A stretch of DNA of 57,749 bases from assembly GCA_012959395.1 (NCBI GenBank), contig DUDG01000042.1, forward strand, positions 1 through 57,749. Direction: 5' to 3'. The position numbers were made by a program, and so were the translations under genes. Positions 21,584-39,394 of the stretch are shown piece by piece; within the stretch, counting starts at the first letter, position 1; the number at the start of each line of letters is the position of its first letter. The notes under the pieces are model-generated. The model was given only the letters and a program-made list of their open reading frames with translations, was not told the DNA's origin and did no database searches. The DNA is from Flavobacteriaceae bacterium (GTDB taxonomy: Bacteria > Bacteroidota > Bacteroidia > Flavobacteriales > Flavobacteriaceae).

Positions 21584-21632
21584 TTAAAAATTTTAGTAAT
21601 TGCTAAATTAATTATACTATTCTTATAAATAG

Positions 21633-21664
21633 TTTGTTTTAATAATTTTTTATTATAATATTTG
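21633..21664 (+). promoter_or_regulatory. Candidate promoter of the arginine operon
   Basis: TTTG at 21633-21636 and AATATTTG at 21657-21664 are separated by 20 bases. This is one mismatch from the Bacteroidota TTTG-N19/20-TAnnTTTG pattern. Transcription would start near 21669-21672 and leave about 145 bases of leader before the GNAT gene. If this start is right, the leader ORF at 21669 would be nearly leaderless; a promoter further upstream is the alternative. Confidence 0.45.
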
Positions 21665-21668
21665 CGAA

Positions 21669-21755
21669 GTGAATTTTATAAATAGATCATTTACCGCTAC
21701 TACATTCAATAGTGCTCCGCGTCGTGCCCGCCCATTTGGGTATTTTTCTATTTAA
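21669..21755 (+). CDS. Putative arginine operon leader peptide (28 aa, ...SAPRRARPFGYFSI)
   Basis: A 28-codon frame begins with GTG at 21669 and stops with TAA at 21753-21755. Residues 18-21 are Arg-Arg-Ala-Arg, encoded CGT CGT GCC CGC, whereas most arginines in neighbouring genes use AGA. A further Arg is at residue 6. The frame lies directly upstream of the arginine operon, and a hairpin begins on the base after its stop. These are the features expected of an arginine-sensing leader peptide. There is no homology evidence, and the GTG start is the weak point. Confidence 0.55.
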   Translation: MNFINRSFTATTFNSAPRRARPFGYFSI

Positions 21756-21777
21756 GAAACTAGGTGAGTCCAGTTTC
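21696..21777 (+). promoter_or_regulatory. Structured leader RNA of the arginine operon (three hairpins)
   Basis: Three inverted repeats lie in an otherwise A+T-rich spacer that turns G+C-rich here. Hairpin 1 at 21696-21715 pairs GC(U)ACUA with UAGUGC. Hairpin 2 at 21730-21741 pairs GCCCA with UGGGU and is followed by UAUUUUUCUAUUU, a weak terminator-like tract. Hairpin 3 at 21756-21777 pairs GAAACU(A)GG with CCAGUUUC. Hairpins 1 and 2 fall inside the leader ORF and the Arg codons lie just before hairpin 2. Alternative pairings are possible and were not computed. Confidence 0.5.
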
Positions 21778-21816
21778 ATTTCAAATTCAATCTTAATCAA
21801 CTTTTTTTAAATCATC

Positions 21817-22344
21817 GTGGAAATTCAAATCGCTTCATTGAAGCATATTAAATATTGTTCTAAAATATCGAAAACAATCAGTTCGTCTGCTAAAGTTAGA
21901 GGGACAGGAATTGCATTAAGATCACCTCAATATATTCAAACCAAAATTGAAAACAAAAATGCCATAATTGCAATTAATAATAATGAGTTTGCCGGGTTTT
22001 GTTACATAGAAGTCTGGGAACATGGTAAATATGTTGTTCATTCTGGACTAATCGTTTCTCCAATTTTTAGAGGAAAAGGATTAGCTAAGAAAATAAAAAC
22101 GATGACTTTTAATTATTCAATGAAAAAATATCCAAATGCTAAAATATTTGGAATAACAACTGGTCTTCCAGTAATGAAAATAAATTACAAACTAGGATAT
22201 AAGCCTGTAACTTTTTCAGAATTAACAGATGATGATGAATTTTGGAAAGGCTGTCAAACTTGTAAAAATTACGATGTTCTAAATAGAACAAAAAAAGAAA
22301 TGTGTCTATGTACAGGAATGCTTTATGATCCAAAAAAAAAATGA
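21817..22344 (+). CDS. GNAT N-acyltransferase of the arginine operon, with C-terminal Cys cluster
   Basis: GNAT-fold acyl-CoA transferase, 175 residues, first gene of the operon. The acyl-CoA loop VSPIFRGKGLAKKIK is at 80-94, with the pyrophosphate-binding R-G-K-G-L. From position in the operon it is the likely glutamate N-acyltransferase for the first step (ArgA role), but this is inference. The C-terminus adds FWKGCQTCKNYDVLNR and MCLC, with Cys146, 149, 163 and 165, which looks like a metal-binding site. The start is GTG at 21817. One base separates its stop from the argG ATG. Confidence 0.72.
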   Translation: MEIQIASLKHIKYCSKISKTISSSAKVRGTGIALRSPQYIQTKIENKNAIIAINNNEFAGFCYIEVWEHGKYVVHSGLIVSPIFRGKGLAKKIKTMTFNYSMKKYPNAKIFGITTGLPVMKINYKLGYKPVTFSELTDDDEFWKGCQTCKNYDVLNRTKKEMCLCTGMLYDPKKK

Positions 22345-22345
22345 A

Positions 22346-23530
22346 ATGAAAAAAATAGTATTAGCATATAGTGGAGGTTTAGACACTTCCTATTGTCTTA
22401 AAAAACTTTCATTAGAAGGAAATGAAGTTCATGCAGTGAGTGTAAATACTGGAGGGTTTTCCATAAATGAAATTAAATTAATTAAACAAAAAGCAATTAA
22501 ATTAGGTGCCTTTAAATACAAATCAATTGATGCTGTTAAATCTTATTATGATAAAATAATCAAGTTTCTAGTGTACGGAAATGTTTTAAGAAACAACACC
22601 TACCCTCTTTCAGTTAGTGCAGAAAGAATAATTCAAGCATTAGAAATTGTAAAATATGCAAAAAAGCATAAAGCAACCCATATAGCTCATGGAAGCACTG
22701 GAGCAGGAAATGATCAGGTTAGGTTTGATATGATCTTTCAAATTATTGCACCTGAAATGGAAATAATCACACCAATTAGAGATGGAAATCTCTCTAGGCA
22801 AGATGAAATAAGCTATCTAAAGAATAATGGAGTTAACATAAGCTGGGAAAAAGCTAAATATTCTATAAATAAAGGATTGTGGGGAACTAGTGTTGGTGGT
22901 GACGAAACTTTATCATCTGATAGAAAACTTCCAGAGGAAGCATACCCTAGTAATCTTAAAAATACATTTAAAAAAGAAATTAAATTAAGTTTTAAAAAAG
23001 GAGAAATATGTGGGATAAATGATGAGTATTATGATCCCGTTGGATGCATTGAAATAATTTCAAAAATATGCGATCAATATTGTATTGGAAGAGACGTTCA
23101 TGTAGGAGATACAATTATTGGAATAAAAGGAAGAGTAGGTTTTCAAGCAGGTGGTCCAATACTAATTTTAAAAGCACATCATTTATTAGAAAAACACACA
23201 TTAACAAAATGGCAACAATTTCAAAAGGAACAATTATCAAATTTCTACGGAATGCTTCTTCATGAAGGACAATATTTAGATCCTGTAATTAAAGATATTG
23301 AGAGCTTTCTAGAAAGCAGTCAAAAAAATGTTAATGGAGATGTGATTATTTCTCTATATCCTTATAGATATGAATTAAATGGAATAAAATCAAACAATGA
23401 TCTTATGAATTCAGAATTCGGATCATATGGTGAAAAAAACAATAAATGGAGTGCTGAGGATGTTAAGGGATTTATAAATATTTTTTCTAATCAAAATAAA
23501 ATATATCAATATGTCAATAACACTAAATAA
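22346..23530 (+). CDS. argG: Argininosuccinate synthase
   Basis: Joins citrulline and aspartate with ATP. From the ATG at 22346 the protein has 394 residues and starts MKKIVLAYSGGLDTSYCL, the ATP pyrophosphatase loop at its proper place; an earlier in-frame ATG at 22325 lies inside the GNAT gene and would add seven residues. Further motifs are HGSTGAGNDQVRFD and GTSVGGDETLSSDRKLPEEAYPS. It overlaps argC by 20 bases. Confidence 0.95.
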   Translation: MKKIVLAYSGGLDTSYCLKKLSLEGNEVHAVSVNTGGFSINEIKLIKQKAIKLGAFKYKSIDAVKSYYDKIIKFLVYGNVLRNNTYPLSVSAERIIQALEIVKYAKKHKATHIAHGSTGAGNDQVRFDMIFQIIAPEMEIITPIRDGNLSRQDEISYLKNNGVNISWEKAKYSINKGLWGTSVGGDETLSSDRKLPEEAYPSNLKNTFKKEIKLSFKKGEICGINDEYYDPVGCIEIISKICDQYCIGRDVHVGDTIIGIKGRVGFQAGGPILILKAHHLLEKHTLTKWQQFQKEQLSNFYGMLLHEGQYLDPVIKDIESFLESSQKNVNGDVIISLYPYRYELNGIKSNNDLMNSEFGSYGEKNNKWSAEDVKGFINIFSNQNKIYQYVNNTK

Positions 23531-24515
23531 CATAAAAGTTGGAATTGTAGGAGGTTCTGGATATACTGGAGGTGAATTAATTAGACTAATTACAAATCAT
23601 CCTAAATCGGAATTGATTTTTGTACATAGCAATATTAATTCAGGAATATATATTTCCGATATTCATCAAGATTTAATTGGTGAAACAGAAATGAAGTTTC
23701 AGAATAAATTAAATTATGATATAGATGTTCTGTTTTTATGTTTAGGTCATGGAAAATCAAATGAGTTTTTAAATAATAATAATATTAAACAAGAAATCAA
23801 GGTAATTGATTTAAGTCAAGATTATAGATTAGAAAATTCATTTTTTAATGAAAATTTTGATGAAAAGAAATACTTCGTTTATGGATTACCTGAGCTTAAA
23901 AAAGAAGAAATTAAAAATGCTCAAAACATAGCAAATCCTGGCTGCTTTGCTACTGTCATACAACTAGGCTTACTTCCATTAATAGGTACAGACTATATTG
24001 ATGGAGAAATCCATACTAATGCTATTACAGGAAGCACAGGTTCAGGAGTAATTCCTAGTGATACATCACATTTTAGCTGGAGAAATAACAATATTTCTTG
24101 GTACAAACCTTTTACTCATCAGCATTTAGAAGAGATTTATTATTCATTTAATAATTTATCTAAAAACATAAAAGAAATAAACTTTTTACCAATTAGAGGG
24201 GGTTTTACTAGAGGAATATTTTGCACAAGTTATTTTGATAGTAAGATTGATTTAAACAAGGCAAAAGACATCTATACAAATTTTTACAAAAAACATCCTT
24301 TTGTTATAATTTCTGAAAAGGAGATTCATTTAAAACAAGTAATTAATACTAATAAATGTATTATTCATATTACTATGAATAAAAACAAATTACTAATCAC
24401 TTCAATTATTGACAATCTAATTAAAGGAGCATCAGGACAAGCTATTCAAAACATGAATTTAATGTTTGGAATAGAAGAACAGACAGGATTAAAATTAAAA
24501 TCTTCAATTTATTAA
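23511..24515 (+). CDS. argC: N-acyl-gamma-glutamyl-phosphate reductase
   Basis: Reduces the acylglutamyl phosphate to the semialdehyde with NADPH. It has 334 residues. The Rossmann loop VGIVGGSGYTGGELIRLI starts at residue 10; the catalytic cysteine is Cys145 in IANPGCFATVIQLGLLPL; HTNAITGSTGSG and the C-terminal LIKGASGQAIQNMNLMFG are family marks. The start overlaps the end of argG by 20 bases, so translational coupling is likely. It is followed by a 29-codon proC remnant. Confidence 0.96.
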   Translation: MSITLNNIKVGIVGGSGYTGGELIRLITNHPKSELIFVHSNINSGIYISDIHQDLIGETEMKFQNKLNYDIDVLFLCLGHGKSNEFLNNNNIKQEIKVIDLSQDYRLENSFFNENFDEKKYFVYGLPELKKEEIKNAQNIANPGCFATVIQLGLLPLIGTDYIDGEIHTNAITGSTGSGVIPSDTSHFSWRNNNISWYKPFTHQHLEEIYYSFNNLSKNIKEINFLPIRGGFTRGIFCTSYFDSKIDLNKAKDIYTNFYKKHPFVIISEKEIHLKQVINTNKCIIHITMNKNKLLITSIIDNLIKGASGQAIQNMNLMFGIEEQTGLKLKSSIY

Positions 24516-24524
24516 AATATAATA

Positions 24525-24614
24525 ATGAAAATAGCTATCATCGGAGAAGGAAATTTAGGGCATTGCATTGCAAAAGGTTTAATTATAAATAATATATCAA
24601 CAAATAAAAAATGA
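24525..24614 (+). pseudogene. proC: proC remnant: first 29 codons of pyrroline-5-carboxylate reductase
   Basis: An ATG at 24525, nine bases after argC, opens a 29-codon frame that reads MKIAIIGEGNLGHCIAKGLI and then IINN. This is the N-terminal Rossmann strand and GxGxxG loop of ProC-type reductases, normally about 260 residues. Its TGA overlaps the argD ATG as ATGA, so the stub keeps exact coupling between argC and argD. The rest of the gene is absent. In flavobacterial arginine operons proC commonly sits between argC and argD, which supports a clean internal deletion. It is not long enough to be an enzyme. Confidence 0.72.
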
Positions 24615-25738
24615 ATTTATTTAATGTATACCCACTATATGAAATGACTCCATCATATGCAAAAATGTGTTATGTGTATGACAAAAATGGGAATAAATAT
24701 CTTGATTTATATGGAGGACATGCTGTAATATCTATAGGTCATAGTCACCCTACCTATGTTAAGGAATTGTCAAATCAATTAAGTAAAATTGGTTATTATT
24801 CAAATTATATAATAAATGATTTGCAAGCTGAAGTTGCTGAACAAATAATAAATCAATCAAAATGTGAAAACTACAACCTTTTCATGTGTAACAGCGGAGC
24901 AGAAGCAAATGAAAATGCACTTCAAATAGCCTCATTCCACACAAATAAATCAAGAGTTATTGCATTTAAAAATTCTTTTCACGGAAGAAGTAACGCTGCA
25001 TTAGGAGTGACAGACAATTTAAAAATTAAATCAAAATTAAATAAACTCATTGATGTCACTTTTTTAGATTTTAACGACAAACAAGGGTTATTAAATGAAA
25101 TTTCGAAGAATGATGTAAGTGCTGTGATATTTGAGTCAATTCAAGGCGTAGGTGGGCTAGATGAACCTGAGACTGAGTTTATTAAGTTCATGTCAGAAGT
25201 ATGTAAAAATTATAAAATATGCCTTATTGTGGATGAAGTTCAATCTGGATTTGGTAGAACTGGAGATTTTTTTGCATATCAAAAACATGATATTAAACCA
25301 GACATTATATGTATGGCCAAAGGAATGGGAAATGGATTCCCTGTAGGTGGTGTTTTAATAAAAAATCATATCAAATCAGAATTTGGCATGCTAGGCACAA
25401 CATTTGGAGGAAATCACCTTGCATGCACTGCTGTATTAGCTGTATTAAAAACTATAAAGGACGAAGATTTATTAAAAAATTCTAAAGAATTAGAAAACTA
25501 TTTTAGAGAGAAAATTTCAAAAATAGATTCTATAAAAAAAATTAAAGGCAGAGGATTGATGTTAGGTTTAGAATTTGAGTTTAAGGTTGCAAAATTGAGA
25601 AAAAAATTAATATTTAAACATAAAATATTCACTGGTGGAAGTGCAAATAAAAACCTTTTAAGAATATTGCCACCATTGAATATTAAAAAAAAACATATTG
25701 ATATGCTTTACAATGCATTAAAAATAGAATTATCATGA
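24611..25738 (+). CDS. argD: Acylornithine aminotransferase
   Basis: PLP-dependent transaminase converting the acyl-glutamate semialdehyde to acylornithine. It has 375 residues, somewhat short for the class III family (about 390-400). The PLP-phosphate motif NSGAEAN is at 94-100, DEVQSGFGRTG is at 208-218, and the Schiff-base lysine is Lys237 in CMAKGMGNGF. It overlaps the proC stub by 4 bases and argF' by 4 bases (ATGA). Confidence 0.94.
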   Translation: MNLFNVYPLYEMTPSYAKMCYVYDKNGNKYLDLYGGHAVISIGHSHPTYVKELSNQLSKIGYYSNYIINDLQAEVAEQIINQSKCENYNLFMCNSGAEANENALQIASFHTNKSRVIAFKNSFHGRSNAALGVTDNLKIKSKLNKLIDVTFLDFNDKQGLLNEISKNDVSAVIFESIQGVGGLDEPETEFIKFMSEVCKNYKICLIVDEVQSGFGRTGDFFAYQKHDIKPDIICMAKGMGNGFPVGGVLIKNHIKSEFGMLGTTFGGNHLACTAVLAVLKTIKDEDLLKNSKELENYFREKISKIDSIKKIKGRGLMLGLEFEFKVAKLRKKLIFKHKIFTGGSANKNLLRILPPLNIKKKHIDMLYNALKIELS

Positions 25739-26685
25739 AAAAATTTATAAACATTAGTGATATAAAAGATTATAAATCTCTTGTTAATGAAACAATAGAT
25801 TTAAAAAACAACCCTAATAAGTTTAATAATATTGGAAAAAATAAAGTTCTAGGTTTAATATTCTTTAATCCAAGTCTTAGAACTAGATTAAGTACACAAA
25901 AGGCAGCACTACAATTAGGGATGAAAACTTTGAATATGAACTTTATTAATGAAGGATGGCAAATAGAATTTGAAGATCATGTTATAATGTCTGGAAATAA
26001 AGCAGAACATGTTAAAGAAGCAGCTAAAGTAATTTCTCAATATTGTGATATAATTGGTATTAGAGCATTTGCATCACTTAATAATAGAGTTAACGATCAT
26101 AAGGATATAGTATTAAATTCTTTTGTTGATCATTCAACTGTACCTGTTTTAAATATGGAAAGCTCTATTGCTCATCCGCTACAAGCATTAGCTGATTCTA
26201 TAACAATTGAAGAAAATAAAAAATCTTTAAAACCTAAAGTAGTATTAACATGGGCTCCTCATCCAAAAGCACTTCCTCATGCTGTGGCAAATTCATTTAT
26301 TAATATGAGTAAACGCAATGATTACGAATTAGTTATCACTAACCCTGAAGGATATAATCTAAACCCTGAAATAACAAAAGGTATTAAGGTGTTGCATGAT
26401 CAAAAAGAAGCGTTTAAAAATGCAGACTTTATTTATGCAAAAAATTGGTCTAGTTATGACAATTATGGAAAAATACTCATTAATGACGATTCATGGATGA
26501 TTAATGAGGACAAAATGAATTTAACAAATAATGCTCAATTCATGCATTGTCTTCCAGTAAGAAGAAATGTGGTCGTGTCAGATTCTGTAATAGACTCAAA
26601 TAATTCATTAATTATTCAACAAGCTGACAATAGAACCTATGCGGCTCAAATTATTTTAAAAAAATTAATTAATAATGAAAAATAA
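25735..26685 (+). CDS. argF': N-acylornithine carbamoyltransferase (ArgF', probably succinylornithine type)
   Basis: Transcarbamylase acting on an N-acylated ornithine, as in Bacteroides and Xanthomonas, instead of free ornithine. It has 316 residues. The carbamoyl-phosphate loop is FFNPSLRTRLSTQ (44-55); HPLQALAD and HCLPVRRNVVVSDSVID follow. Residue 90 is Ala in GNKAEHVKE. In the published AOTCase/SOTCase comparison, Glu92 marks the acetyl enzyme and Pro90 the succinyl enzyme, and E92A turned one into the other. Ala at this place therefore points to N-succinylornithine; the alignment is by eye. Confidence 0.9.
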   Translation: MKKFINISDIKDYKSLVNETIDLKNNPNKFNNIGKNKVLGLIFFNPSLRTRLSTQKAALQLGMKTLNMNFINEGWQIEFEDHVIMSGNKAEHVKEAAKVISQYCDIIGIRAFASLNNRVNDHKDIVLNSFVDHSTVPVLNMESSIAHPLQALADSITIEENKKSLKPKVVLTWAPHPKALPHAVANSFINMSKRNDYELVITNPEGYNLNPEITKGIKVLHDQKEAFKNADFIYAKNWSSYDNYGKILINDDSWMINEDKMNLTNNAQFMHCLPVRRNVVVSDSVIDSNNSLIIQQADNRTYAAQIILKKLINNEK

Positions 26686-27454
26686 ATTAACAATTATTAA
26701 AGTTGGTGGCAGAGTATTAAATGATAAAAATATTTTTGAAAAGTTTTTATTTAATTTTTCGAAAATTAATGGAAAAAAAATACTTGTTCATGGTGGTGGA
26801 ATAATTGCTTCTAACTACTTGATTAGATTAGGAATTCTTCCAAAATTAATAAAAGGAAGAAGAATTACAGATGAAAAGACTTTAGATATAACAATAATGA
26901 CTTATGCAGGACTAATAAATAAAACTATTGTATCAAATCTTCAAAAAAATAACTGTAATTCAATTGGTTTATCAGGTGTTGATTGTAATTTAATTAAAGC
27001 AAAAAAAAGAGAAATCAATGATATTGATTATGGATTAGTAGGAGATATAGAAAAAATTAATATTAATTTCATTAATACCTTATTAAGTAATAATATAACA
27101 CCTGTTATTTGTTCCCTTTCTCATGACGGAAAAGGACAAATACTAAATACTAATGCAGATAGTATTGCATCACATTTATCTGTAGAAATGTCAAACTATT
27201 ATAATGTTAGTTTAAAATATTGTTTTGATAGAGCAGGAGTTTTAAGTGATCAAAAAAAATCATCGAGCTTGATTAAAAATATTAACCTTTCAGGCTACAA
27301 AGGATTAATTAAAGAAAAAATAATCACTGATGGAATGATACCAAAATTAGATAATTGTTTTTATGCTCTAAGAAATGGGGTAAATAGTATTTCAATAGGA
27401 GATTATAATGTAATTACAAATAAAAAAAACTATACTAAAATAACTCTTGATTAA
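26675..27454 (+). CDS. argB: N-acylglutamate kinase
   Basis: Phosphorylates the gamma-carboxyl of N-acylglutamate. It has 259 residues, typical. Visible motifs are the N-terminal IKVGGRVLND phosphate loop, ILVHGGGIIASNYL with RRITDEKTLDI, and the C-terminal GLIKEKIITDGMIPKLDNCFYALRNGV. It overlaps argF' by 11 bases and touches argE by one base. If the pathway is succinylated, this kinase would use N-succinylglutamate. Confidence 0.94.
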   Translation: MKNKLTIIKVGGRVLNDKNIFEKFLFNFSKINGKKILVHGGGIIASNYLIRLGILPKLIKGRRITDEKTLDITIMTYAGLINKTIVSNLQKNNCNSIGLSGVDCNLIKAKKREINDIDYGLVGDIEKININFINTLLSNNITPVICSLSHDGKGQILNTNADSIASHLSVEMSNYYNVSLKYCFDRAGVLSDQKKSSSLIKNINLSGYKGLIKEKIITDGMIPKLDNCFYALRNGVNSISIGDYNVITNKKNYTKITLD

Positions 27455-28509
27455 TGGAAATATTAATTTCAAACGCTATAAAATTATTAAAGGATTTAAT
27501 CGCCATAGAATCTTTCTCCTTTAATGAAGACAAATCAGCCGATAGAATTGAAAATTGGTTTAAGTCATATAACATCGATTTTAAAAGACACAAGAACAAT
27601 GTCTATGCTTTTAATAAATACTTTGATAAAAGTAAACCAACAATACTATTAAATTCACATCATGATACAGTAAAGCCAAACAAAGGCTACACAAACGATC
27701 CGTTTGAAAGCAAGGTCGAAAATGGTAAACTTTATGGACTAGGAAGTAATGATGCTGGTGGTGCACTTGTTTCATTAATAGCTGTATTCACTTATTTATA
27801 TAATAAAAAAGAGTTAAACTATAATTTGCTAATATTAGCTTCAGCAGAAGAAGAGTCATCAGGATATAATGGCATAGGTTCTGTTATACCTTTAATTCCA
27901 GAAATTGATTTTGCCATTATTGGAGAACCTACCTTAATGAAAATGGCTATAGCTGAAAGAGGTTTAATAGTATTTGATTTAAAAGTTAAAGGAACTGCAA
28001 GTCATGCAGCTCACAAAAATTATGATAATCCAATAATTAAATCAATCGATGTTTTGAATTGGATAAATAACTTAAAATTTGAAAAAAAATCTAATTTTTT
28101 AGGATCAGTTAAAGTTACAGTAACACAAATAAAATCAGGAAATCAACATAATGTAGTTCCTTCAGAATTAAAGTTAGTATTAGATGTTAGGGTTAATGAT
28201 TGTTATACAAATAAAGAAATATATGAGTTGTTGAAAAAAGATGCGCCCTGCGAAATAGAACCTAGGTCATTAAATCTAAATTCTTCTATGATTTCAATTA
28301 ATCACCCTATAGTTATTGGGGGAAGTAAAATAAATATTGAAAATTACGGCTCACCCACTCTATCAGATCAAGCAAAAATTTCTTTTCCATCGATTAAAAT
28401 GGGACCAGGTGATTCTACTAGATCACATACATCTAATGAATTCATTTATGTAAATGAAATAAAAAATGCTATACCAAAATATTTGGATTTATTAAACACA
28501 ATAATTTAA
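27454..28509 (+). CDS. argE: M20-family N-acylcitrulline/acylornithine deacylase
   Basis: Zinc peptidase-fold deacylase that removes the acyl group late in the pathway, here from the acylated citrulline made by ArgF'. It has 351 residues. Metal and catalytic motifs are LLNSHHDTVKPN, YGLGSNDAGGALVSLI and ASAEEESSGYNGIGS (general-base Glu), with GEPTLMKMAIAERG and GPGDSTRSHTSNEF further on. The ATG overlaps the argB stop by one base (TAATGG). Confidence 0.92.
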   Translation: MEILISNAIKLLKDLIAIESFSFNEDKSADRIENWFKSYNIDFKRHKNNVYAFNKYFDKSKPTILLNSHHDTVKPNKGYTNDPFESKVENGKLYGLGSNDAGGALVSLIAVFTYLYNKKELNYNLLILASAEEESSGYNGIGSVIPLIPEIDFAIIGEPTLMKMAIAERGLIVFDLKVKGTASHAAHKNYDNPIIKSIDVLNWINNLKFEKKSNFLGSVKVTVTQIKSGNQHNVVPSELKLVLDVRVNDCYTNKEIYELLKKDAPCEIEPRSLNLNSSMISINHPIVIGGSKINIENYGSPTLSDQAKISFPSIKMGPGDSTRSHTSNEFIYVNEIKNAIPKYLDLLNTII

Positions 28510-28519
28510 AATAAAAATT

Positions 28520-29809
28520 ATGAAGCTTTGGAACAAAAAAGATCTGCTAAATAAAAAAATTGAAAAATTTACTATAGGAGAAGATAGAATCAACGATTTA
28601 TATTTAGCTAAGTATGATGTTATAGCATCTCTTGCACATGCTAAAATGCTCAAAAAAGTAAGTATTATAAACAGTAAAGAACTTAAAGCTTTAGAATATG
28701 AATTAATTAAGATAAAAAAGGATATTAAAGACGGTAAATTTGAAATTGAAAACAAGTTTGAAGATGTTCATTCAAAAATAGAATCAATACTAACAGAAAA
28801 GTTAGGTGAAGCAGGTAAAAAAATTCATACAGGAAGATCAAGAAATGATCAAGTTCTTGTCGCTACACAATTGTATTTGAAAGATGAAATTAATAAAATT
28901 AAGTCATTGACTAAAGAATTGTTTAATGTTTTAATTGATTTATCTAAAAAAAACAAAGATCATTTACTTCCAGGTTATACTCATTTACAAGTAGCTATGC
29001 CATCATCATTCGGACTTTGGTTTTCCGCATATGCCGAAAGCCTTATAGATGATGTCATGTATTTAAATACGGCATTCAAAATAAATGATCAAAATCCGCT
29101 TGGAAGTGCTGCTGGATATGGAAGTTCATTTAACATTGATAGAGATTTCACCACTAAAGAACTAGGTTTTAAAGAATTAAAGTATAACGTAGTTTCATCA
29201 CAAATGAACAGAGGAAAGGTTGAAAAATCTGTTGCTATTGCTATTGGTTCAATTGCAAGTACATTATCAAAATTATCTTCTGATATATGCTTTTACATGA
29301 GTCAAGAATTAAATTTTATATCATTTCCAGAAGATGTCACTACAGGTTCAAGCATTATGCCACATAAAAAAAATCCAGATGTATTTGAGTTGATAAGAGG
29401 AAAATGTAACATGATTCAATCATTAGCAAATGAATTTAATCATATTTCCTTAAATTTGTTTAGCGGATATCATAGGGATTTACAACTATTTAAAGGTAAA
29501 ATAATTGAATCTATAAATGAAATTAAAAACTGTTTAGAGATTATCTGTTTTACAATTCAAAAAATTAAAATTAGAAAAAACATTCTTGATGATGATAAAT
29601 ACAAATACATTTATTCCGTTGAGAATTTAAATAATTTAGTGAATAACGGAATGGCATTTAGAGATGCTTATTTAAAAATTTCCGATGATATTAAAAAAAA
29701 TAATTTTATTCCCAATAAAAAATTAGATCATACTCTTAAAGGTAGTTTGGGTAATTTATGCTTAAAAGAAATCAAATTAAAAATGGAAAAAACTATGAAG
29801 TTGAACTAA
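28520..29809 (+). CDS. argH: Argininosuccinate lyase
   Basis: Splits argininosuccinate into arginine and fumarate, the last step. It has 429 residues, near the family length of 430-460. Motifs are HTGRSRNDQVLVATQLY, GYTHLQVAMPSSFGLW and the signature GSSIMPHKKNPDVFELIRGK with the catalytic serine loop. It is the final gene of the operon, 10 bases after argE, and convergent with lpd; no clear terminator is seen in the 41-base gap. Confidence 0.95.
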   Translation: MKLWNKKDLLNKKIEKFTIGEDRINDLYLAKYDVIASLAHAKMLKKVSIINSKELKALEYELIKIKKDIKDGKFEIENKFEDVHSKIESILTEKLGEAGKKIHTGRSRNDQVLVATQLYLKDEINKIKSLTKELFNVLIDLSKKNKDHLLPGYTHLQVAMPSSFGLWFSAYAESLIDDVMYLNTAFKINDQNPLGSAAGYGSSFNIDRDFTTKELGFKELKYNVVSSQMNRGKVEKSVAIAIGSIASTLSKLSSDICFYMSQELNFISFPEDVTTGSSIMPHKKNPDVFELIRGKCNMIQSLANEFNHISLNLFSGYHRDLQLFKGKIIESINEIKNCLEIICFTIQKIKIRKNILDDDKYKYIYSVENLNNLVNNGMAFRDAYLKISDDIKKNNFIPNKKLDHTLKGSLGNLCLKEIKLKMEKTMKLN

Positions 29810-39309: not shown

Positions 39310-39394
39310 GGAGAAATGGCAGAGTGGTCGAATGCGGCAGTCTTGAAAACTGTTGAGGGTCACACCTCCGGGGGTTCGAATCCCTCTTTCTCCG
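39310..39394 (+). tRNA. tRNA-Ser(UGA)
   Basis: The acceptor stem GGAGAAA pairs with TTTCTCC, with discriminator G at 39394. The anticodon loop CTTGAAA carries TGA at 39344-39346. The long variable arm (GAGGGTCACACCTC) and the T-loop TTCGAAT confirm a class II serine tRNA of 85 bases. CCA is not encoded. It marks the border between the core region and the accessory region to its right. Confidence 0.97.

Follow-up and report, generated by a model that had tools for sequence, protein, structure and literature searches.

How a bacterium of the phylum Bacteroidota adjusts the synthesis of arginine to its supply is the question raised by a spacer of 233 bases in a contig of a Flavobacteriaceae bacterium (GenBank assembly GCA_012959395.1, contig DUDG01000042.1; the whole stretch of 57,749 nucleotides that was analysed is called here the window). 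The spacer precedes an arginine biosynthetic operon, and literature searches did not show how arginine synthesis is regulated in Bacteroidota. A sequence-only reading of the window had described in this spacer a short frame with arginine codons and hairpins, and had proposed that they form a ribosome-controlled attenuator. Comparison among relatives shows that the frame, its arginine codons, a hairpin with the marks of an RNA structure (hairpin 3) and a U-rich tract are conserved, and that there is no intrinsic terminator from hairpin 3 on. The spacer is probably a leader-peptide sensor of charged arginyl-tRNA that controls the arginine operon. Its parts, among which the 233-base spacer, the frame of 28 codons, the arginine codons and both hairpins lie where the sequence-only reading had placed them, are the following:

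21584-21816, forward strand: spacer before the arginine operon, 233 bases, coordinates read from the sequence
21669-21755, forward strand: leader open reading frame, GTG to TAA, 28 codons plus stop (VNFINRSFTATTFNSAPRRARPFGYFSI), with the TAA directly before hairpin 3
21720-21731, forward strand: control codons CGT CGT GCC CGC (Arg Arg Ala Arg), codons 18-21 of the frame
21730-21741, forward strand: hairpin 2, GCCCATTTGGGT (GCCC-ATTT-GGGT), which overlaps the last Arg codon; a longer register, 21724-21743, also folds
21742-21755, forward strand: U-rich tract between hairpins 2 and 3; hairpin 2 is followed by ATTTTTCTATTT
21756-21777, forward strand: hairpin 3, GAAACTAGGTGAGTCCAGTTTC, directly after the TAA, with a 6-bp stem, a bulged A (21762), GG/CC and the pentaloop UGAGU (21765-21769)

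The arginine-rich frame in relatives

The product of the first gene of the operon, a GNAT acetyltransferase, was sought in 100 genomes including that of the window and was present in 56; the region upstream was read in 55 of them (G096 was not read). Among the 40 gene-carrying genomes of the window's family, the window included, 39 have the core of hairpin 3 and a frame with at least two Arg codons near its end; in the remaining one, G053, the hairpin is a variant. From these 39 sequences a covariance model, R1, was built; it has matches in 245 of the 397 family genomes searched, with one match per genome among those listed, the listing naming 20 of the 152 genomes that have no match and giving coordinates for part of the 245 matches. 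Among 43 family genomes present both in the gene search and in this listing, gene and match were both found in 27, neither in 15, the gene only in one (G053) and the match only in none; further family genomes, outside the 100-genome search but searched with R1, gave both in seven and the gene only in two (G186 and G375, genus g151). Besides, a pattern scan of GTDB species, in which Zobellia and Maribacter are represented, yielded at least 119 stretches, and in 116 of those 119 the operon's first gene follows immediately; of the other three, two are followed by argG after roughly 720-790 bases and the third sits at the edge of its retrieved sequence.

The leaders used for counting come from 149 loci, from which four that failed the hairpin rule (L023, L158, L164 and L184, the first three of which do turn up in other searches for the element) and seven repeats were removed. 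This left 138 distinct leaders, a set that leans towards conserved cases because it was drawn from the better-scoring R1 matches and from the relatives of the gene search; the N-terminus of the first gene was located downstream by script in 129. When the frame is set through hairpin 2, an anchor that nearly builds in one Arg codon, at least three Arg codons are found in the last ten codons plus tail of 132 of the 138 leaders, as compared with 9 and 0 in frames +1 and +2. An anchor-free rule (any frame with at least four Arg in its last 13 codons) is passed within the family by 92 of 129 leaders, and by 4.8 shuffled ones on average (maximum 12). The conserved short frame ending in Arg codons that had been named beforehand as the thing to look for in relatives is present, and the case that would have spoken against it, hairpins kept without the frame or its Arg codons, is the opposite of what was found: the frame and its Arg codons are conserved along with the hairpins.

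The Arg codons at the frame ends of these leaders are CGC or CGT in 524 of 554 cases. Thirteen genes in the neighbourhood of the window's spacer use AGA 91, AGG 11, CGT 5, CGA 2, CGG 1 and CGC 1 times (n=111), which bears out the earlier remark on the prevalence of AGA; since CGT and CGC amount to 6 of these 111, the Arg codons of the leader are locally rare. In 116 leaders, the codon before the hairpin 2 codon has entropies of 0.07, 0.26 and 0.92 bits at its three positions, and this variation, mainly at the third base, is a coding signature that argues for translation of the frame. The stop codon touches hairpin 3, directly preceding its stem, in 13 of 14 leaders of the window's genus, and it lies in or overlaps the loop of hairpin 2 in 116 of the 124 leaders outside this genus.

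Arg-rich frames were also found before the same gene in other families: read by eye, in 3/3 leaders of f2, 3/3 of f15, 3/3 of f9 and 1/1 of f3. In f22, which belongs to another order, 24 of 26 leaders have in some frame at least three Arg in the last 13 codons (shuffles 4.0, maximum 9) and 15 have at least four (shuffles 0.6, maximum 2). In f35, from another class, these figures are 29 of 29 (shuffles 7.0, maximum 14) and 28 of 29 (shuffles 1.1, maximum 3), and the frame ends in Arg-Arg-Arg-stop in 20 of 29 (shuffles 0.2). The f22 leaders come from 30 of 55 matches and those of f35 from 30 of 34, and in some of these leaders the assigned start may be wrong. In the f35 leaders (L231-L236, L400-L429) other hairpins follow the frame, and by eye their tails are without an evident U run.

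Hairpins, U-rich tract and terminators

Hairpin 3 is the best conserved part of the leader, with a strongly conserved GGUGNGUCC core on a covarying stem. The sequence-only reading had located it correctly and had missed its conserved loop. In an alignment of 99 leaders, every one of the five lower-stem pairs changes on both sides, and the covariation score of the whole structure is 0.268, as compared with 0.122 in shuffles and at most 0.098 in slid versions; this alignment was fitted to the covariance model and leans towards it, and a MAFFT alignment of 39 leaders agrees in kind. The core reads GGUGAGUCC in 116, GGUGUGUCC in 17, GGUGCGUCC in 4 and GGUGCGCCC in 1 of the 138 leaders, whose loci were chosen by a pattern close to the core, which is nonetheless present in 39 of the 40 gene-carrying family genomes. 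Outside this set, GA/UC replaces GG/CC round a UGUGU loop in L245. The distance from the core to the start of the first gene is 49-84 nt in 124 of 129 leaders and 99-113 nt in the other five.

Related pentaloops are found beyond the family. Of the 26 leaders of f22, 14 are followed by a hairpin with a UA[CU]G[UC] loop, as compared with 0.2 in shuffles (maximum 1); L381 and L390, also of f22, have a loop hairpin beyond the region used for this count. When f2 and G053 are taken together, 4/4 leaders have a hairpin with a U[N][ACU]G[UC] loop (shuffles 0.4). The UNNGY loop occurs in 2 of 29 f35 leaders and in 1 of 12 from f17, f18, f19 and f23 together, not clearly above shuffles.

Two other readings of hairpin 3 were rejected. 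Intrinsic termination at this hairpin is opposed by the lack of a U tract, and a DNA operator reading of its GGAAC/GTTCC palindrome by arms that vary in a compensated way round a constant loop. Hairpin 3 has the features of an RNA structure with a conserved loop and does not look like a terminator. The motif AGGTGA inside it (window 21762-21767) would pair with the 3' end of 16S rRNA, although Shine-Dalgarno sites are seldom used by these bacteria.

In the U-rich tract, positions 3-12 after GGG have T in 38-76 percent of the 138 leaders and G in at most 9 percent, except for 20 percent at position 4. Covariation says little on hairpin 2 because this hairpin hardly varies within the family; both of its arms change together in two leaders (L025 and L180).

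With a terminator taken as a hairpin followed by a U run, none of the 138 arginine leaders has one between hairpin 3 and the first gene at a threshold of 6 T in 8 positions, and three have one at 5 of 8 (shuffles 1.9), whereas trp leaders pass the same rule in 11 of 12 cases at 6 of 8 and in 12 of 12 at 5 of 8. Before hisG, a GC-rich terminator with a U run was found by pattern at 13 of 14 HisG loci, that of the window's own genome included; a fifteenth locus (L206), from which no leader was recovered, was left out. This leader of the window's genome (L207, on contig 39 of G000) encodes a His leader peptide followed by a terminator, as in the classical kind. The Bacteroid-trp leader was found in 12 of 20 genomes searched, with a clear terminator at its end; L076 (G002) and L071-L082, from the same genus and family, share the terminator GGCTTGTC...GACAAGCC plus a U run. 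No hairpin common to the arg, trp and his leaders was noticed by eye.

As regards alternative pairing, mutual information was computed for the 131 of 138 leaders whose hairpin 2 loop has 4 nt, with sequence weights as the sole correction for kinship; as far as 30 nt beyond hairpin 3 it revealed no pseudoknot, long-range or mutually exclusive antiterminator pairing. An anti-hairpin-3 structure, in which the U-rich spacer would pair with the hairpin 3 stem, was rejected: its mean of -0.81 is only slightly above the controls (shuffled spacers -0.64, sd 0.09; swapped arms -0.72, sd 0.05) and too weak for use. His and trp leaders in some of the same genomes thus have terminators where arginine leaders have none from hairpin 3 on; related cells, and judging by L207 that of the window too, use an ordinary attenuator for his and something else for arg. 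The attenuator originally proposed is strongly supported in its sensing half (conserved frame, Arg codons and hairpins) and not supported in its classical half, with terminators from hairpin 3 on in 0/138 leaders at 6 of 8 T and no antiterminator seen in the range covered.

Candidate promoter, operon and proposed output of the leader

Around these elements, the window contains the following features:

21633-21664, forward strand: candidate Bacteroidota promoter read by pattern, with TTTG (21633-21636) and the -7-like box TAATATTTG (21656-21664)
21701-21780, forward strand: match of covariance model R1, 79.7 bits, E 2.4e-17, the window being one of the 39 training sequences
21778-21816, forward strand: tract of 39 nt without G that reaches the first gene, similar to a Rho site by composition alone
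21817-29809, forward strand: arginine operon with GNAT acetyltransferase, argG, argC, argD, N-acetylornithine carbamoyltransferase, argB, ArgE/DapE-type deacylase and argH

Strand and spacing suggest that the operon is one transcript. Its first gene (21817-22344) has a weak Pfam match to Acetyltransf_1 (23 bits), and by its position the encoded protein may be the N-acetylglutamate synthase; the divergent neighbour on the other side of the spacer is the gene of a chorismate-binding enzyme. The promoter reading rests on the -33/-7 pattern of Bacteroidota. Its -7 box differs by one base from TAnnTTTG, described as the sigma-A -7 element in Flavobacterium psychrophilum (PMC9723704). An exact TAnnTTTG box is present within 200 nt before the hairpin 3 core in 47 of 138 leaders; 37 of these boxes are situated 0-25 nt before an in-frame start. 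The leader frame is likely to be nearly leaderless, with a predicted start site, because this start follows 7 nt behind the box in 27 of the 37, and 4 nt after TTTG in the window. The doubt raised earlier about the GTG start is eased, since the starts picked in frame by script in the 14 leaders of the window's genus are GTG in eight and ATG in six.

Ribosomal sensing of arginyl-tRNA is well supported because of the family-wide match, the frame-specific Arg codons, the covarying hairpin 3 and the Arg-rich leaders elsewhere. As in classical attenuators, the frame has control codons for the product of its own operon. Transcription would start just 5' of the frame, which would be translated from a nearly leaderless end. 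With ample arginine, the ribosome would pass the CGY run, reach the stop codon and depart, hairpin 2 would fold, and RNA polymerase would stall or terminate in the U-rich tract behind it. When arginine is short, the ribosome would stall on the Arg codons and cover the 5' arm of hairpin 2, and the polymerase would enter the operon; hairpin 3 would be a separate recognition or stability element. The masking of hairpin 2 as the output step is proposed tentatively, with a probability somewhat below even, and it is favoured over the outputs by Rho or by a factor or decay at hairpin 3 because the U-rich tail is conserved throughout the family. When the terminator rule is applied from hairpin 2 to the start, a threshold of 5 of 8 T is reached by 62 of 138 leaders, as compared with 8.2 shuffles, and one of 6 of 8 by 25, as compared with 3.2, with every hit at 6 of 8 situated before hairpin 3. 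Hairpin 2 is only weakly terminator-like.

Several observations weigh against this picture. On the side of the output, at 7 of 8 T the rule is passed by 1 of 138 leaders as compared with 0.8 shuffles, and the shuffles used in all these counts also destroy hairpin 2, which makes them a mild control. Hairpin 2 itself is weak (about -7.9 kcal/mol), a terminating ribosome would mask it too, since most relatives have the stop codon inside its loop, and the best conserved part of the leader, hairpin 3, is given no task by such a model. The single-sequence fold of the window's leader is not significant (z -1.44; 15 of 200 shuffles fold as well), and a scan for sigma-70-type promoters found sites at chance number, 2 as compared with 2.2 expected. 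On the side of the sensor, no Arg-rich frame was seen by eye before the same gene in f5 (0/3 read) and f16 (0/2), and nine leaders of f34, f36, f37, f39 and f41 have at least three Arg in 6 cases, not above chance (shuffles 4.5). Within the family, all five leaders examined from genus g151 (L224-L228) are without the core and the CGY run and fail the Arg rule. Two g151 leaders have frames with 3-4 Arg that end about 200 nt upstream, and the genus keeps the acetyltransferase gene despite lacking the CGY run and hairpin 3 in these leaders.

The main alternatives to hairpin 2 masking keep the Arg codons as the sensor and change the output. In one of them, which is unlikely, the loop of hairpin 3 would be bound by a protein, an RNase or another factor that sets elongation, translation or the decay of the mRNA, and the ribosome, once at the stop codon, would open or leave this hairpin. 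The compensated stem with its unchanged core, the recurrence of pentaloop hairpins in f22 and in f2 with G053, the contact between stop and hairpin in the window's genus and the narrow range of distances from core to start speak for such an output. However, in most of the family the stop is some 15-20 nt before hairpin 3, probably beyond the reach of a terminating ribosome, f35, f17, f18, f19 and f23 do not have the loop above chance, and we know of no factor that binds hairpin 3. Also sensor-based, and quite unlikely, is an output through Rho, in which the position of the leader ribosome would decide the loading of Rho on the G-poor RNA behind hairpin 3, and this hairpin would guard or delimit the site. 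The lack of an intrinsic terminator from hairpin 3 on fits it, and so does the composition: from hairpin 3 to the start the C/G ratio is 2.25 (as compared with 1.43 for the stretch preceding hisG and 1.50 for that behind the trp terminator), and 101 of 129 leaders have 20 nt or more in a row without G. The speF leader of Salmonella, moreover, combines Arg codons, a hairpin behind the stop and Rho (PMC6386406). Yet both controls are small (490 and 181 bases), G-poor stretches before starts may be usual in these genomes, and a conserved C-rich element was not found.

The remaining explanations do without ribosomal sensing as the main event. Direct binding of arginine by hairpin 3 and its bulge, with the Arg codons as a secondary feature, would agree with the conserved bulge and loop and with the presence of one element per genome among the matches listed, before the arginine operon wherever checked; nevertheless, it is very improbable, as hairpin 3 is very small for an aptamer, the leaders of f35 are Arg-rich despite their different hairpins, and the coding signature argues for translation. 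A small ORF that arose by chance or has no regulatory role, beside hairpins that are structural noise, would suit the modest z of the single-sequence fold, but family-wide conservation, covariation and frame-specific Arg enrichment make this hardly conceivable.

Precedents and relevance

Among known RNA families, Rfam release 15 gave in the window a single match at gathering score, a tRNA at 39310-39394, and none in the spacer. Seven weak matches in the spacer region lie without exception on the opposite strand, with scores well short of the gathering level, and the Bacteroid-trp model (RF01692) does not match the arginine spacer at its gathering score. Bacteroid-trp, catalogued in PMC2864571 and applied to F. 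psychrophilum in PMC6414381, is among the closest known systems, with a leader peptide that has codons for the amino acid of its operon and that is found in relatives; it differs in its Trp codons and in the true terminator, AAAAGGCTTGTC...GACAAGCCTTTTTT, that follows. In relatives and in the window's genome, the his leader likewise has a short frame with His codons before hisG and differs in its GC-rich terminator and U run, which the arginine leader lacks from hairpin 3 on.

Sensing of arginine by leader peptides has precedents in other groups. In Salmonella, the ribosome senses consecutive Arg codons of orf34 upstream of speF, with a hairpin 3' of the stop, and the involvement of RNase G and Rho was shown by experiment; its target is ornithine decarboxylase, its peptide is the gamma-proteobacterial DUF2618 and its leader is long (PMC6386406). 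The Arg codons of the rbfL leader peptide of Staphylococcus aureus also sense arginine, although this leader acts by blocking the ribosome site of a biofilm regulator and so on its translation (PMC13009471). The LEU element and the cys leaders of Actinobacteria are leader peptides with codon runs, the former with a conserved RNA structure and the latter without obvious terminators (PMC1262725); pairing of the kind described there was not seen in the arginine leaders within 30 nt behind hairpin 3, and the stretch from this hairpin to the start, with G at about 7 percent, offers little space for a box of that sort. A further precedent is found in PMC4833913.

The suggestion that such a system could be new for Bacteroidota has to be narrowed, given trp (RF01692) and the strong indications, in a passage that does not name arginine, that amino-acid operons of F. 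psychrophilum are preceded by leader-peptide attenuators (PMC9723704). For arginine, none of the papers listed in the searches describes, to judge by titles and the beginnings of abstracts, a leader of this kind in Bacteroidota. The arginine leader would add this amino acid to those sensed by leader peptides of bacterial biosynthetic operons. Bacteroidota are a major phylum of the sea, soil and gut, and the leader offers a directly testable answer on how they regulate arginine synthesis. Placed beside ordinary his and trp attenuators, it poses the question of how an operon is switched without an intrinsic terminator and of what reads the loop of the hairpin. A rather doubtful but wider proposal is that a two-part leader without intrinsic terminator, composed of a ribosome on an Arg run and of a U-N-N-G-Y pentaloop hairpin recognised by a dedicated factor or by arginine, governs the arginine operon of much of Bacteroidota; if true, it would be a new output mode of leader peptides kept across at least two orders.
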